Source: Stigmatella ashevillena (lineage in GTDB: Bacteria; Myxococcota; Myxococcia; Myxococcales; Myxococcaceae). Taken from it: a DNA stretch of 64,000 bases. The translations under genes were made by a program, and so were the position numbers. Position 1 is the first letter of the stretch. Each line of letters starts with the position of its first letter. The stretch is from contig NZ_JAQNDM010000002.1 in the NCBI RefSeq assembly GCF_028368975.1, positions 2,428,007-2,492,006 of the forward strand, in the 5' to 3' direction. Below the pieces are notes generated by a model that was given only the letters and a program-made list of their open reading frames with translations, did no database searches and was not told the origin of the DNA. This document shows, one piece after another, positions 5,006-10,120 of the stretch.

Positions 5006-7147
5006 ATGATCCCCCGCCTCTGGCCCGCCTCCCGCCCCAGGCCTCTCGAGGAGGGCGCCGCAAGCGCTCCTTCGCAGACCTTCCAGGGGGCCTTCTGGCT
5101 CGGATGGGGAGCCCTGCTCACACTCGCCTTCCTCGCGCGGGTGGCGAACTGGCGCCACGTCTTCCTGGAAGGGGGCGTGGAGCTGATCCCCACCGACTCG
5201 TACTACTACGTCCGCTACGCCCTGCTGCAGCAGCACGCCTTCCCGTTCTTCCACCGGTTCGATCCCTACATCAGCTTCCCGAGCGGGGCCTTCATCATCT
5301 GGCCGCCGCTGCACACCTGGCTGGTGGCCTTGTTCCTCGCGCTCGGGCCTGCGGATCCCGAGCGCGCCGCGGCCTGGGTGGGCCCGGCGCTGGCGCTCGT
5401 GGAGTTGGGGCTGCTCACGCTCCTGGCCCGGCGCTGGCTGGGCGCAGGGGTGGCGCTGGGCGCGCTCGTGCTGATGGCGCTGGTGCCCGCAGCGGTCACC
5501 TCGGGATCGCTGGGCAATGCGGACCACCACGTCCACGAGCTGACCCTGTCCGCCCTCGCCGCGCTCTTGCTGGGCCGGGCCCTGCTCCAGGGCTCGCCCC
5601 GGCTGGGGGTGGCGGCGGGGGTGGCCCTGGGACTCGGGCGGATGTTCACCACCACGAGCTTCACGCTGGTGCCCGGCATGGCCGCCGCCATTCCCCTGGC
5701 GGCCCTGCTCACCCGAAGCGCTCCTGGGGCCGCCAGCCGCGTGGGACTGGCCGCCGGGGCGGGGCTCGCGCTGGCGCAGGGGCTGGCCGTGGTGTGGTTC
5801 GGCACCCCCACCTCCCTGGCCTATTACGACATCTCGCTCTTCCAACCCCTCTTTGGCCTGTGCCTGTTCTGGGCCGGGGCGGGAGGGGCCGCGTTCCTCG
5901 AGCGCCGCCCGAGGTGGTTCCTGCCCCTGGGCATCGCGGCCCTCTGTGCCCTGCCCCTTGCCGCGGAAGTCTCACGGGCCTTTGGACATCTGACGCACCA
6001 GGATCCCCTCCTCAACATCGTCTCCGAGTCCATCCCACTCTGGAGGGACTGGACCTTCGCGCGGCAACTGCTGGGCCCGGTGTGCCTGCTGCTGCCCCTC
6101 GGACTGGTAGCCGCCTCCGTCCTGGCCTGGCGCGAGCGCGACGTGATGACGGCCACCCTCGTAGCGGGAACCCTGCCCCTCATCGCGGCCTCGCTCCTTC
6201 AGGCCCGCTTCACGCAGCCCTTGCTGGGCAGCGGCGCGCTGCTCACCGCCGTGGGGCTGGGTGGGGCCTTGCACCAGGCCACCCCGCGCATCCGCCACGT
6301 GTCGTATGCCCTGCTCGGGCTGGTGGGGCTGTCCCTGCTGGCCTCCCTCGTCCCCCTGCGGCGGGCCAAGGCCCCCACGGACGAGGGCCTCATCCGCTCC
6401 ACCCTCACCTGGATGCGGGCGCACACCCCTCCCCCCTCGCCTGCCTGGGACACCCGGGTGCCTCCGGCCTATGGCGTGGTGGCCTACTTCAACCTGGGAC
6501 ACCTGCTGGCGCTCTGGGCCGAGCGCCCCGCGGTGGCCACCCCCTTTTCCCAGGTGCCCGAGCACATCCAGGCCAACCTCGCGGCCACCGAGGTGCTCAG
6601 CGCCGGGGAGGAGGAGGCCGCCTATGCGCGGGCCCAGGCCCTCTCCACGCGCTACGTGTTGCTCATCCCCATCGAGTACTTCCTCGGACGGCTGAAGGTG
6701 CCTCCGCGCCAGACGGTGCACGACTGGCTGCTGGAGCACGCGGGAATGGCCCAGGAGCACCGGCCGGCGAGCAGCCACTTCCGCCTCATCCACGAATCCG
6801 AGGAGCCCCGCCCCGGCAAGCCCCTCCTTCCTTACGCCCGCCTCTTCGAGCTCGTCCCCGGCGCGGAACTCCGGGGGCACTGCACCCCCGGCACCCCGGT
6901 GTCCGCGGCGCTGGCGCTGACCACCTCCCGGGGTACCACCCTGCACTACACCCCCCAGACCACCGCCGACGCCCGGGGGGACTTCTCGCTTCGCGTGGCC
7001 TATCCCACCGAAGGGGACCCGGCGGCGACAGAGGTCCGCGCCATGGCGCCCTACACGGTGTCATGCGACGGAGGCGGGGGAATGGCCTCCGTTTCCGAAG
7101 CCGCCGTGCGCAAGGGGACGGCGATCGCGCTCGACAGGCTCCCTTGA
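5006..7147 (+). CDS. STT3/AglB-like oligosaccharyltransferase-family membrane protein
   Basis: This 713-residue polytopic protein has about 11-13 membrane helices and a soluble C-terminal domain of roughly 200 residues. GT-C/STT3 hallmarks appear in order: an acidic first-loop motif (PTDSYYYVRY), then FDPYISFPSG and WPPLHTW, a second-loop DxE-like motif (GNADHHVHE), and NIVSESIPLW, which matches the SVSE/TIxE element carrying a metal-binding glutamate. The WWDYG sequon-binding motif is not intact; the aligned stretch reads AYFNLGHLL. Known family members transfer lipid-linked glycans to Asn in proteins. The acceptor here is unknown and may differ. The start at 5006 is preferred over upstream in-frame ATGs, which lie inside the divergent gene. 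Confidence 0.75.
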   Translation: MIPRLWPASRPRPLEEGAASAPSQTFQGAFWLGWGALLTLAFLARVANWRHVFLEGGVELIPTDSYYYVRYALLQQHAFPFFHRFDPYISFPSGAFIIWPPLHTWLVALFLALGPADPERAAAWVGPALALVELGLLTLLARRWLGAGVALGALVLMALVPAAVTSGSLGNADHHVHELTLSALAALLLGRALLQGSPRLGVAAGVALGLGRMFTTTSFTLVPGMAAAIPLAALLTRSAPGAASRVGLAAGAGLALAQGLAVVWFGTPTSLAYYDISLFQPLFGLCLFWAGAGGAAFLERRPRWFLPLGIAALCALPLAAEVSRAFGHLTHQDPLLNIVSESIPLWRDWTFARQLLGPVCLLLPLGLVAASVLAWRERDVMTATLVAGTLPLIAASLLQARFTQPLLGSGALLTAVGLGGALHQATPRIRHVSYALLGLVGLSLLASLVPLRRAKAPTDEGLIRSTLTWMRAHTPPPSPAWDTRVPPAYGVVAYFNLGHLLALWAERPAVATPFSQVPEHIQANLAATEVLSAGEEEAAYARAQALSTRYVLLIPIEYFLGRLKVPPRQTVHDWLLEHAGMAQEHRPASSHFRLIHESEEPRPGKPLLPYARLFELVPGAELRGHCTPGTPVSAALALTTSRGTTLHYTPQTTADARGDFSLRVAYPTEGDPAATEVRAMAPYTVSCDGGGGMASVSEAAVRKGTAIALDRLP

Positions 7148-7152
7148 AATGA

Positions 7153-7183
7153 AAAGAGCGGCCTCCCGAAGGAGCCGCTCTTT
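7153..7183. terminator. Bidirectional Rho-independent terminator
   Basis: The arms AAAGAGCGGC (7153-7162) and GCCGCTCTTT (7174-7183) pair, with an inner TCC/GGA pairing and a CGAA loop. The A-run on one side and T-run on the other allow termination in both directions. It separates the STT3-like gene (plus) from the pilin gene (minus). Confidence 0.88.
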
Positions 7184-7208: not shown

Positions 7209-7463
7209 TTAGTAGGAGTTCTCCTGGGCGAAGTTCTTGATGTTCTTGTTGTGCAGCGCGTTCGTGGTCTCCTGCGCGCCCGTCTCCACCGACTCATTGC
7301 CGGCCAGGGCGCTGGCCGAGGCGCCGAACAGCTTGCGAACGTTGTCGCCGAAGAGGGTGATGACGCCGATCGCCGCGATGGCAATCAGGGCAACGATGAT
7401 GATGTACTCCGTCATGCCCTGGCCACGGGCCTTGCGGAACTGCTTGCGGGTCATCGCCTTCAT
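7209..7463 (-). CDS. Flp-type (class IVb) prepilin
   Basis: This 84-residue protein has a short basic leader, the prepilin cleavage context GQGMTEYIIIVALIA (Gly before a hydrophobic helix with Glu at +5) and a single hydrophobic N-terminal helix. That is the hallmark of Flp/Fap pilins assembled by Tad secretion systems. The ATG at 7463 has AGGAG seven bases upstream; an alternative ATG nine bases downstream is possible. No tad/cpa assembly genes are in the window, so processing and export must rely on genes elsewhere. The C-terminal half is polar with several Asn residues. It is transcribed away from mrpA. The family call is firm; the role (adhesion, export or pseudopilin) is open. Confidence 0.88.
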   Translation of the reverse strand: MKAMTRKQFRKARGQGMTEYIIIVALIAIAAIGVITLFGDNVRKLFGASASALAGNESVETGAQETTNALHNKNIKNFAQENSY

Positions 7464-7696: not shown

Positions 7697-8671
7697 ATGA
7701 ACGCTCTGCTCCTGCAAGCCGTGCAGCTCGCCTGGTCCCCTGGCCTGCGGGTGACCCGCGTCGAAGGGGACAGCGCCACCGTCCTCCGGCGTCCCGCGGC
7801 GGAGTTGCTGGATACCCCCCTCCACGTGGCGCTCGGCATCTCACCGGAGCGGGCCCGGGATTTGAACGCCCTGGCCCAGGAGGACCGCCACGCCGTGGAG
7901 TTCCTCTCCGCCCAGCTCGGCTCGGTGGAGCCCTCCTCGCTGCGGCTGGTGCTCGGCCTGAGCGAGGGCGCGCCCGCCGCCGCCATCCTGGATCTGAACG
8001 CCCTGCTCATCGGGGCCCCGCCCGTCCAGATTTCGGGCCTCTCGTCCTCGCTCAGCCATGAAATCCGCAACCCGCTCAGCTCCGTGAAGATGGCGGTGCA
8101 AACGCTCCAGCGGAACACCGGCCTGTCGGACCGGGACAAGCGCCGCCTGACGATCGCCAACCGGGAGATCCGCACCATGGAGCGGATGCTCTGGATGCTC
8201 TCCGAGTACGGCCGGGACAGCGTGCCCAACCTGGACTCCCACCCCCTGCGCTCCGTCCTCCAGGAAGCCCAGACCATGGTGGCCCCCGAGCTGGCCGAGC
8301 GCCGCATCGAGCTGAACATCGAGGAGGAGCCCGAGCTGCCCCGGGCCCGGGTGGACACCCTGCGCCTGAGGCCCGTGCTCGCCCAGTTGCTGCTCAACAT
8401 CGCCATGGGCCAGCCCGAGGGCTCCCAAGTCCAGGTGCACCTGCGCACAGGCCCCTCCGGCCAAGCCCAGCTCCTGCTGAAGGACCCCGTGGCGGCCCTG
8501 CCTCCGGAGGAGCGCGCCACCCTGTTCGAGCCCTTCGGCTCCCGGCTGGCACACGGGGCCGGCCTCTCCCTTGCCGCCCTCCGGCGTGTCATGCTCAACC
8601 AGGGGGGAACCGTGTCCGCCGAGGGAAGCGCCGAGCCCGGAATGGTGTTTACACTCACCTTCGCCGTGTGA
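7697..8671 (+). CDS. mrpA: Histidine kinase MrpA
   Basis: This 324-residue cytoplasmic sensor has no membrane segment. A small N-terminal domain (1-110) precedes the dimerisation helix with the phospho-acceptor in SHEIRNPLSS (His121). The ATP-binding domain keeps the N-box asparagine (LLLNIAM) and the second glycine motif (GAGLSLA), but the usual DxGxG reads DPVAALPPEE, without its glycines. That fits a protein acting more as a phosphatase than a kinase. The ATG at 7697 is chosen over an in-frame ATG at 7604 because the shorter form starts at the conserved domain. The stop overlaps the upstream part of mrpB. In M. xanthus MrpA and MrpB form a pair controlling mrpC. Confidence 0.88.
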   Translation: MNALLLQAVQLAWSPGLRVTRVEGDSATVLRRPAAELLDTPLHVALGISPERARDLNALAQEDRHAVEFLSAQLGSVEPSSLRLVLGLSEGAPAAAILDLNALLIGAPPVQISGLSSSLSHEIRNPLSSVKMAVQTLQRNTGLSDRDKRRLTIANREIRTMERMLWMLSEYGRDSVPNLDSHPLRSVLQEAQTMVAPELAERRIELNIEEEPELPRARVDTLRLRPVLAQLLLNIAMGQPEGSQVQVHLRTGPSGQAQLLLKDPVAALPPEERATLFEPFGSRLAHGAGLSLAALRRVMLNQGGTVSAEGSAEPGMVFTLTFAV

Positions 8672-8680
8672 GTGAGTCGC

Positions 8681-10120
8681 ATGGAGACCCTTCTCATCAT
8701 CGATGACGACGTGGGCCTCCTGGAGAACCTCCAGATGCACTTCGAGGAGATCCTCCAGGATGACGCGCCGCGCTATAACGTGGTGACGGCCACCAGCGCC
8801 GCCACGGGGCTGAAAGCCGCCCAGGAGGCCATGCCCAGCGTGGTCATCCTGGACATGATGCTGCCGGACCGCAGCGGCCTGGAAATCATCGAGGAGATGA
8901 AGACGCTGTGTGGGGACGCGCGCATCATCCTCGTCACCGCGCACCACGACATGGAGACGACGATCCGGGCCATGAAGGCCGGGGCGTTCGACTACATCCA
9001 CAAGCCCTTTCCGGACCCCGCGGCGTTGGATCTCGTGGTGGAGCGGGCGCTGGAGTACCGGCAGCTGTCACGCCGGGCCGCATCGGTGAATGTGGAGAAC
9101 GCGGCGGCGCGCCTGGGCGACATCGTCGGCACCAGCCCGCTGATGCAGCAGTTGGTGAAGGAGATCGGCAAGGTCACCAGCAGCCACGCCACGGTGCTCA
9201 TCAATGGCGAGAGCGGCACGGGCAAGGAGCTGTTCGCCCGCGTCATCCACAACTACTCCTATGACGAGGCCAAGCCGTTCATCGGCATCAACTGCTCGGC
9301 CATCGTGGACACGCTGCTGGAGAGCGAGCTGTTTGGCCACGAGAAGGGCTCGTTCACCGGCGCCACCAGCACCAAGCCGGGCAAGTTCGAGCTGGCCGAG
9401 GACGGCACCGTCTTCCTGGACGAGATCGGCGACATGTCGCTGATGCTCCAGTCCAAGCTCCTGCGTGTGCTCCAGGAGCGCGAGTTCGAGCGCGTGGGCG
9501 GCGTCAAGCGCATCAAGCTGCGCGCGCGCGTCATCGCCGCCACCCACCGCACCCTCTCCGAGGAGGTGTCCTCCGGCCGGTTCCGCGAGGACCTCTACCA
9601 ACGCCTCAAGGTCATCACCCTGCAGATTCCCCCCTTGCGGGAGCGGCGCGAGGACATCCCCCTGCTCGTGCACCACCTGCTGGAGCGCATCAACGAGAAG
9701 GTGCACAAGCGCGTGCTCCGGGTTCCTCCGGAGGTGCTGGAGCACCTGACCCGGCTGCCCTGGCGCGGCAACGTGCGCGAACTGGAGAATGTCCTCACCC
9801 GCGCCGTGGTGCTCGCCCCTGGAGAGGTGCTGCTGGGCGGGGACCTGCCCGCCCTCGAGCCCGGTCCCATTCCGGAGTCCGGACGGACCCAGCCCTCCCC
9901 GGGTCCTCTCTTCGCGGCCCCGCCCGTGGACGACGCCAGCCAGATTCCCACTTTGGAAGAAGCCGAACGCGTGCTCATCCAACGCGCCATGGCCGTCACC
10001 AAGGGGCACAAGGGCAAGACGTGCCAGATTCTGGGAATCAGCCGACCAACTCTTGAGAGAAAACTCCAGAAATACGCGCTTTCCCAGCCACTCGCCTCGT
10101 CCTTGGGTGGACAGGGCTAG
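8681..10120 (+). CDS. mrpB: NtrC-family sigma-54 activator MrpB
   Basis: This 479-residue response regulator has a receiver domain (1-125) with Asp58 in VVILDMMLPD, a AAA+ domain (about 145-375) with Walker A GESGTGKE, the sigma-54 loop as GSFTGA, FLDEIGDM and the R-finger region RFREDLYQRL, a Pro-rich linker, and a Fis-type helix-turn-helix ending near LGISRPTLERKLQKY. An in-frame GTG at 8672, directly after the mrpA stop, is an alternative start. The ATG at 8681 places the N-terminus at the first receiver strand. It is co-transcribed with mrpA. In M. xanthus this protein activates mrpC from a sigma-54 promoter, and a good match lies upstream of mrpC here. Confidence 0.93.
   Translation: METLLIIDDDVGLLENLQMHFEEILQDDAPRYNVVTATSAATGLKAAQEAMPSVVILDMMLPDRSGLEIIEEMKTLCGDARIILVTAHHDMETTIRAMKAGAFDYIHKPFPDPAALDLVVERALEYRQLSRRAASVNVENAAARLGDIVGTSPLMQQLVKEIGKVTSSHATVLINGESGTGKELFARVIHNYSYDEAKPFIGINCSAIVDTLLESELFGHEKGSFTGATSTKPGKFELAEDGTVFLDEIGDMSLMLQSKLLRVLQEREFERVGGVKRIKLRARVIAATHRTLSEEVSSGRFREDLYQRLKVITLQIPPLRERREDIPLLVHHLLERINEKVHKRVLRVPPEVLEHLTRLPWRGNVRELENVLTRAVVLAPGEVLLGGDLPALEPGPIPESGRTQPSPGPLFAAPPVDDASQIPTLEEAERVLIQRAMAVTKGHKGKTCQILGISRPTLERKLQKYALSQPLASSLGGQG

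Follow-up and report, generated by a model that had tools for sequence, protein, structure and literature searches.

A gene in a 64,000-nucleotide stretch of the Stigmatella ashevillena genome (NCBI RefSeq assembly GCF_028368975.1, contig NZ_JAQNDM010000002.1, positions 2,428,007 to 2,492,006; hereafter the window) encodes a protein (P0001) that is homologous to the archaeal oligosaccharyltransferase AglB, its C-terminal AglB_L1 domain included, and that, judged by its sequence and predicted fold, probably works like an oligosaccharyltransferase (OST). In this protein, referred to below as the OST, the residues of the AglB catalytic centre are kept, those of the WWDYG motif are replaced, and the gene adjoins a pilin gene, a neighbourhood that recurs among bacterial relatives. 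The explanation that best accommodates the homology, the predicted fold, the kept catalytic residues, the lost WWDYG residues and the recurrent pilin neighbourhood is that the OST is a pilin-directed glycosyltransferase that uses AglB chemistry and does not follow the N-X-S/T acceptor rule. We assign this explanation a probability slightly under one half (about 0.48), and we infer all of its parts, namely catalysis, the pilin acceptor, the linked residue and the donor lipid. Altogether, these data suggest that the OST, whose gene like those of many bacterial relatives lies next to pilus-protein genes, decorates pili by an unusual rule. Related genomes and loci are designated below by G and L numbers.

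Family, fold and catalytic centre

The OST open reading frame (ORF) begins with an ATG, and a Met is found at the same aligned position in the nearest orthologue. Comparison with three genus-mates gave dN/dS ratios of 0.08-0.14 (YN00) and 0.28-0.37 (NG86), which indicate purifying selection, and the OST is therefore a real gene rather than a chance ORF. It is the only STT3 match in the source genome. Close orthologues were found in 18 of the 96 genomes of the family, a count that excludes a weak match in G021 (L020; E 3.7e-4 over 104 residues); three of the seven genus members are without the gene, and its identity between genus-mates, 80-86%, is below that of most neighbouring genes. A scan of named genomes with the orthologue alignment returned five loci, all of them from myxobacteria or Deltaproteobacteria and one from Archangium violaceum, and a scan of plasmid records returned a single haloarchaeal record that matched by the C-terminal part only.

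Pfam searches of the OST identified AglB_L1 (E 1.2e-16; 61 bits, the cut-off being 23.6) and, in the membrane part, STT3 (3.1e-8), both above the curated cut-offs, together with an AglB_core-like match under its cut-off (0.0026). The NCBIfam model TIGR04154 for archaeosortase-associated STT3 proteins matched at E 2e-59, but with 201.8 bits against a cut-off of 450, and because of this score its name should not be transferred to the OST; all 32 aligned bacterial rows match the same model at E 1e-5 or better. When a profile of ten orthologues was compared with the PDB, Archaeoglobus fulgidus AglB (AfAglB) was matched at OST residues 37-552 and 609-710 (E 2.4e-22). A first AlphaFold2 (AF2) model built from 10 rows (pLDDT 76, active-site loops below 50) was superseded by a 32-row model with a pLDDT of 91.6 and a pTM of 0.90. 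The top four Foldseek matches of this model were all AfAglB (E 1.9e-27 to 1.9e-25), and VIA-align superposed its residues 31-710 on 3waj with a Z score of 33.4 and a root-mean-square deviation of 3.2 over 623 residues. VIA Z scores were 26.6-33.4 across the AfAglB entries, 25-32 for eukaryotic STT3, 24-25 for PglB, 22-23 for PMT and 19-20 for ArnT and DPY19. The predicted structure has the fold of STT3, AglB and PglB, with a GT-C membrane domain and an AglB-type C-terminal periplasmic domain. The initial annotation, made from the sequence alone, had called the protein STT3/AglB-like and proposed a comparison of its AlphaFold model with PglB and AglB; the profile and structure matches bear out this identity, AfAglB being the best match, and no other GT-C family matched better.

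In AfAglB, the metal is bound by Asp47, Asp161 and His163, Glu360 of the TIXE motif contacts the metal through a water molecule, and Arg426 lies near the phosphate site (PMC8342417; here and below, published sources are cited for excerpts of their text). The aligned residues of the OST (D64, D173, H175, E341 and R401) were retained in 17 of the 17 close rows, which comprise P0001 itself and L022-L037; the remoter G087 (L038) is counted among the 18 genomes and was placed with the distant rows. The acidic loop motifs and the glutamate of IVSE are thus kept, as had been read from the sequence at the outset. Over 32 diverse rows, the sole invariant columns were D64, D173, E341, R401 and G619. E341 was kept in all 45 readable distant rows, and at the position of H175 the distant rows had His (33), Asp (9) or Tyr (1), such that the His of external loop 2 (EL2) has been swapped in part of them. 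The motif counts leave out duplicates and fragments (L064, L065, L066, L067, L070, L073, L074, L106, L131, L132 and L138), and the AfAglB row of the alignment spans residues 20-609 only.

Replacement of the WWDYG motif

The pocket that receives the Ser or Thr at position +2 of the acceptor site is built from the Trp-Trp-Asp of WWDYG together with the DK/MI motif (PMC8342417, PMC3703281). At the place of WWDYG the OST has YFNLG, confirming the replacement described in the initial annotation. YFNLG is common to all four genus members that carry the OST, and the remaining readable close relatives carry QYDMG, PYDMG, DHELG, SHDVG, HHDMG or SNDWG; because the genus members agree and the other close relatives also lack WWDYG, YFNLG is not a sequencing slip. 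Neither the first nor the second Trp was present in any of the 16 readable close rows (the second being replaced by Tyr in 8, Phe in 4, His in 3 and Asn in 1), the Asp was present in 11 (Asn in 4 and Glu in 1 of the rest), and the Gly and the following His were found in all 16. The loss of the motif that reads the +2 residue, which had been noted for the one protein, extends to every readable close row.

The 48 distant bacterial rows, which include fragments and many related sequences, had the first Trp in 0 of 46, the second Trp in 44 of 47 and the Asp in 23 of 47. The first Trp was absent in all 62 readable bacterial rows, close and distant, and its absence is thus a general feature of the bacterial rows examined; what marks the close family is absence of the second Trp. 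Because the first Trp is missing throughout the bacterial relatives examined, the OST is the extreme of a trend rather than a lone oddity. In a comparison of ten rows by eye, the segment at residues 554-562, which follows the strand at 548-553 and corresponds to the place of the AfAglB DK motif, had no conserved Lys, or Met and Ile, and the OST model has no helix at 554-566; the DK/MI variant motif is hard to locate from sequence (PMC3703281). Since WWDYG was looked for and found to be replaced, the OST is not filed here as a sequon-reading N-oligosaccharyltransferase. By analogy with the structures of its relatives, the missing pocket residues suggest that the OST would not read a +2 Ser/Thr.

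Pilin genes beside OST genes

The best functional clue, omitted from the initial annotation, is the adjacent gene: the OST gene converges on an Flp pilin gene, with 61 bp between the two gene ends. The pilin has 84 residues from the chosen start, a processing site of G/QGMTEY and a weak Pfam Flp_Fap match (2.1e-4, under the cut-off), and its sequence ends in -NSY, the corresponding end being -AY in two genus-mates and many relatives. KilP (mxan_5121), an Flp pilin of 97 residues with A96 that is conserved in Myxococcales, is the major pilin of the Kil Tad pilus required for prey killing, and its C-terminal part covers the pilus surface in the authors' AlphaFold model (PMC12075869). By its fit in kind to this published description, the pilin beside the OST is a probable KilP orthologue. 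The OST gene directly adjoins the Flp gene in seven of the 18 genomes, namely the four genus members, two of the Archangium group (L025 and L026, in which both genes are on the same strand) and G043 (L035); the distance is about 6 kb in G006 (L028) and about 10 kb in G042 (L223).

Loci of distant AglB_L1 or STT3 matches were searched with a fixed prepilin-site pattern and a limit of 5 kb. A prepilin ORF lay within this limit of the OST in 25 of the 44 distant entries. The 44 contain fragments and weak matches as well as genes entered as two pieces (L195, L172), and many lie on short contigs. Positives made up 17 of the 18 entries from the phylum of G312 and 8 of the 26 from outside it. The control was composed of 20 arbitrarily chosen stretches (384,000 bases in total) of 13 such genomes; it contained one prepilin hit, which explains both positives among 76 overlapping windows of equal size. 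In the G312 phylum, 12 of the 18 entries have a pilin with FTLMEIMVVIIV or a close variant at 150-400 bp from the OST. Family searches identified neighbouring genes: N_methyl pilins lie near the OST in L164, L168, L160 and L162, the last beside PilM/PilN. In both L159 and L161 the OST neighbours include a PilD-type peptidase and an ABC protein; L159 has an N_methyl pilin as well, and L161 has prepilin motifs. TadE/G-like and T2SSF neighbours were found in L165. In L168, a single strand carries two pilins, one of them recognised only by its motif, together with the OST, WbqC and a family 2 glycosyltransferase. By the pattern, L165, L166 and L167 are among the loci that lack a pilin although their flanks are complete. 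In a 60-row tree, built without the motif columns and leaving out six more rows and all rows below 380 residues, the pilin-adjacent rows fell in about six places (the G312 phylum, L160/L195, L168, L175, the group of L159, L161 and L164, and the family of the window), with nine changes at the fewest.

Two further observations concern genes beside these loci. In L163 and L177, the OST is flanked by a histidine kinase and a sigma-54 regulator that resemble PilS and PilR. Some OST-bearing and some OST-lacking genomes have a gene for a YfhO-like membrane protein next to or close to the KilP-like Flp gene, as identified by Pfam PF09586 in L025 (9084-11273), L035 (2954-5137), L218 (4684-6957) and L223 (6850-9078), and by similarity to L025 in L026, L028, L221 and L225. 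Among 39 close-family neighbours scanned, YfhO was found in three members, and no other of the 25 families listed in more than two. The YfhO family includes lipid or wall glycosyltransferases, so that the Flp locus may carry a second glycosylation gene. When the genes called in the window by codon bias were inspected by the initial 50 residues of their products, no glycan-assembly gene was recognised, the family searches covering the OST and pilin only.

N-X-S/T sites in the neighbouring pilins

The number of N-X-S/T sites in pilins was compared with that in 2000 shuffles of the mature pilin parts, which take no account of shared ancestry or position. The 21 type IV pilins encoded within 1.3 kb of an OST had 17 sites against 33.5 in the shuffles (1 of 2000 as low), and 13 pilins further from an OST had 17 against 13.5 expected. 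Above expectation in the nearby type IV pilins were N-x-[DE] (42 vs 23.2) and N-x-[VLI] (51 vs 36.3). Flp pilins beside or near OSTs had 3 N-X-S/T sites against 6.2 expected, and those of 25 genomes without an OST had 25 against 19.9. Because the shuffles ignore ancestry and position, these counts show only that there is no sign of N-X-S/T use on these pilins. One Asn, in N-V-L or a near variant, was retained in 15 of 16 pilins near the OST in the G312 phylum (L162, L178-L194), and this residue may be either an acceptor or a residue required by the fold.

An N-X-S/T site in the neighbouring Flp pilin was also considered as a conserved target and was rejected, being present in three of eight species (the window species, G036 in L023 and G006 in L028) and absent from L022, L024, L025, L026 and L035, of which L022 and L024 are genus-mates that do carry the OST.

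Taken together, these data make plausible the earlier proposal that the OST serves a different acceptor, in that the pocket residues are gone, the gene is associated with pilins and N-X-S/T is not enriched; the acceptor itself is one that we infer.

Proposed mechanism and alternative explanations

As a pilin-directed glycosyltransferase, the OST would be an inner-membrane GT-C enzyme of the STT3/AglB lineage that takes a glycan from a polyprenyl-linked donor by means of an AglB-type metal site (D64, D173 and H175) and the E341 loop; activation of the donor at the metal site and the polyprenyl-linked glycan would be expected from the family, since the AglB centre is conserved. The glycan would then pass to a surface protein in which a +2 Ser/Thr does not specify the acceptor site, as the residues that read this position are gone. 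Based on the gene neighbourhood, the likeliest acceptor would be a pilin, here the adjacent Flp pilin, a probable orthologue of the major pilin of the prey-killing Tad pilus. A broader proposal, which we regard as doubtful, is that bacterial AglB_L1-type OSTs form a separate branch devoted to pilins, both type IV and Tad/Flp, that has replaced the N-X-S/T rule by another, such as a conserved Asn with a hydrophobic +2 residue (as in the N-V-L or near variant of the G312-phylum pilins), and that in the relatives of Stigmatella and Archangium they sugar-coat the Kil pilus and thereby alter its encounters with prey, phage or kin.

The usual account of N-glycosylation has a single enzyme family that obeys a single acceptor rule. 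If the OST acts on pilins as proposed, the retention of the catalytic centre and the loss of the sequon-reading residues would separate the chemistry from the choice of acceptor, and AglB chemistry would be tied to bacterial pili, one of them used for prey killing. The enzyme might also offer a glycosylation tool that works without N-X-S/T. The pilin neighbourhood makes the question of the acceptor testable on a small, purifiable protein.

Several observations weigh against a pilin-directed role. The shortage of N-X-S/T was clear only in the G312 phylum (14 vs 28.2); the five nearby pilins from outside this phylum had 3 sites against 5.3 (382 of 2000 as low), and the mirror pattern [ST]-x-N was also somewhat short (26 vs 33.6). 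A comparison of the Flp tails, made by eye only, found no residue peculiar to the OST-bearing species. Seventeen of the 25 positive distant entries came from one phylum, and one split gene was counted twice among the rest. In a second distant set (13 loci, 12 with an OST match), a prepilin lay within 5 kb in only 1 of 12; most contigs of this set end near the OST, and one of three was positive where 5 kb was available on both sides. The positive locus, L237, also has PilD-, PilS- and ABC-like genes, and a PilR-like gene was found in L229 and L231 and an ABC-like gene in L233. Moreover, the pilin does not need the OST, since Flp pilin matches, paralogues included, were found in 90 of the 96 family genomes and a close OST in only 18. 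The best Flp match is far off or on another contig in nine of the 18 OST genomes, of which G083, G048 and G087 retain other neighbourhood genes beside the OST; most simply, the pilin link of the close family is one ancestral arrangement that was broken several times, which is modest evidence when taken alone.

These nine genomes would also fit a general AglB-like protein glycosyltransferase acting on relaxed or ordinary N-X-S/T acceptors, which would be read by residues outside WWDYG, the pilin neighbourhood being historical. The retained catalytic residues and AglB_L1 domain agree with such an enzyme, as does the motif Asp, which is kept or replaced by Asn in most close rows (11 and 4 of 16, respectively); however, both Trp are missing in all 16 readable close rows, pilus-gene neighbours recur across several lineages, and the nearby pilins of the G312 phylum have fewer N-X-S/T sites than their shuffles, and we consider this explanation possible though unlikely. 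A glycosyltransferase of lipid or polysaccharide, in which the AglB fold has been reused for lipid A, a wall polymer or a secreted polysaccharide in the manner of ArnT or YfhO, is improbable: the GT-C fold is common to ArnT (VIA Z 20.1) and arabinosyltransferases, and a YfhO-like gene, whose family has roles of this kind, adjoins the Flp gene in several relatives, but the match to AglB is well above that to ArnT (Z 33.4 over 623 residues vs 20.1 over 457), and the E341 loop and the AglB_L1 domain are retained. A decaying or non-catalytic paralogue, to which the scattered occurrence (18 of the 96 family genomes, and four of the seven genus members) and an identity between genus-mates below that of most neighbouring genes might point, is very improbable given a dN/dS well under 1 and the invariance of D64, D173, E341 and R401 over 32 rows.

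Comparison with known systems

PilO/TfpO, PglL and TfpW are pilin O-oligosaccharyltransferases of the O-antigen-ligase type or other GT-C proteins, and their genes often adjoin a pilin gene. They share with the OST its proposed role in pilin glycosylation; in contrast to them, the OST has Pfam matches to AglB_L1, PMT_2, STT3 and AglB_core-like alone. The OST resembles AfAglB-L (3waj, 5gmy and 7e9s) in its predicted fold, both acidic motifs, the TIXE glutamate, the phosphate-site Arg and the AglB_L1 domain, and differs from it in having YFNLG for WWDYG, in showing no recognised DK/MI signature at the place of that of AfAglB, and in being a bacterial protein that is the single STT3 match of its genome and adjoins an Flp pilin gene. 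Campylobacter PglB (5ogl, 6gxc and 3rce), which has WWDYG and MI motifs (PMC3703281), is similar in fold (VIA Z 24.4-25.2); however, no PglB chain was among the PDB sequence matches up to E 1 for the OST or E 10 for the profile. In a literature search that covered few subscription papers or preprints, no AglB/STT3 protein linked to bacterial pilins was found among the titles and abstract openings listed; oligosaccharyltransferase together with myxobacteria gave nothing, and together with pilA and Deltaproteobacteria it gave only Neisseria O-glycosylation.

Other features of the locus

The features of the window are listed in Table 1. A consensus terminator scan that requires a T run reported none at the stem-loop between the two convergent genes. 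By synteny, the sensor kinase and NtrC-type regulator genes remain next to the pilin gene whether or not a genome has the OST.

Table 1. Positions in the window of the OST gene, its aligned motif codons and the adjoining features.
Feature	Coordinates	Strand	Basis
AglB-like GT-C oligosaccharyltransferase homologue (OST, P0001), 713 aa	5006..7147	+	ORF and translation, Pfam/NCBIfam, AfAglB profile match, AF2 model, PDB matches
D64 codon, first acidic motif (PTDS; external loop 1, EL1), aligned with AfAglB metal ligand Asp47	5195..5197	+	alignment
D173-H174-H175 codons, second motif (GNADHH; EL2), aligned with AfAglB Asp161/His162/His163	5522..5530	+	alignment
E341 codon, IVSE (TIXE/SVSE) motif, aligned with AfAglB Glu360	6026..6028	+	alignment
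R401 codon, aligned with AfAglB Arg426 near the lipid phosphate	6206..6208	+	alignment
Y494-F495-N496-L497-G498 codons, place of WWDYG in AfAglB	6485..6499	+	alignment
AglB_L1 peripheral domain (PF18079), residues 619-707	6860..7126	+	Pfam
Stem-loop between the convergent OST and pilin genes, possible shared terminator	7153..7183		folding energy -20.5 kcal/mol, z -3.5
Flp-type pilin, probable orthologue of KilP and proposed acceptor	7209..7463	-	Flp_Fap, GQGMTEY site, family matches, KilP description
Sensor kinase (7697-8671) and NtrC-type regulator (8681-10120); context, not part of the enzyme	7697..10120	+	named by eye; synteny

A second, remote AglB-like paralogue is present in G043 (L039:7022-9268) and has AWNFG at the place of WWDYG; no prepilin motif was found in the 15.8 kb of this locus. 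In five relatives a large protein is encoded between the Flp and kinase genes (L218:8417-11257, L219:4952-7804, L220:4941-7832, L223:3496-6333 and L224:4961-7834), at a place where the window has only an intergenic gap, and the protein of L218 carries a spermidine-synthase domain.

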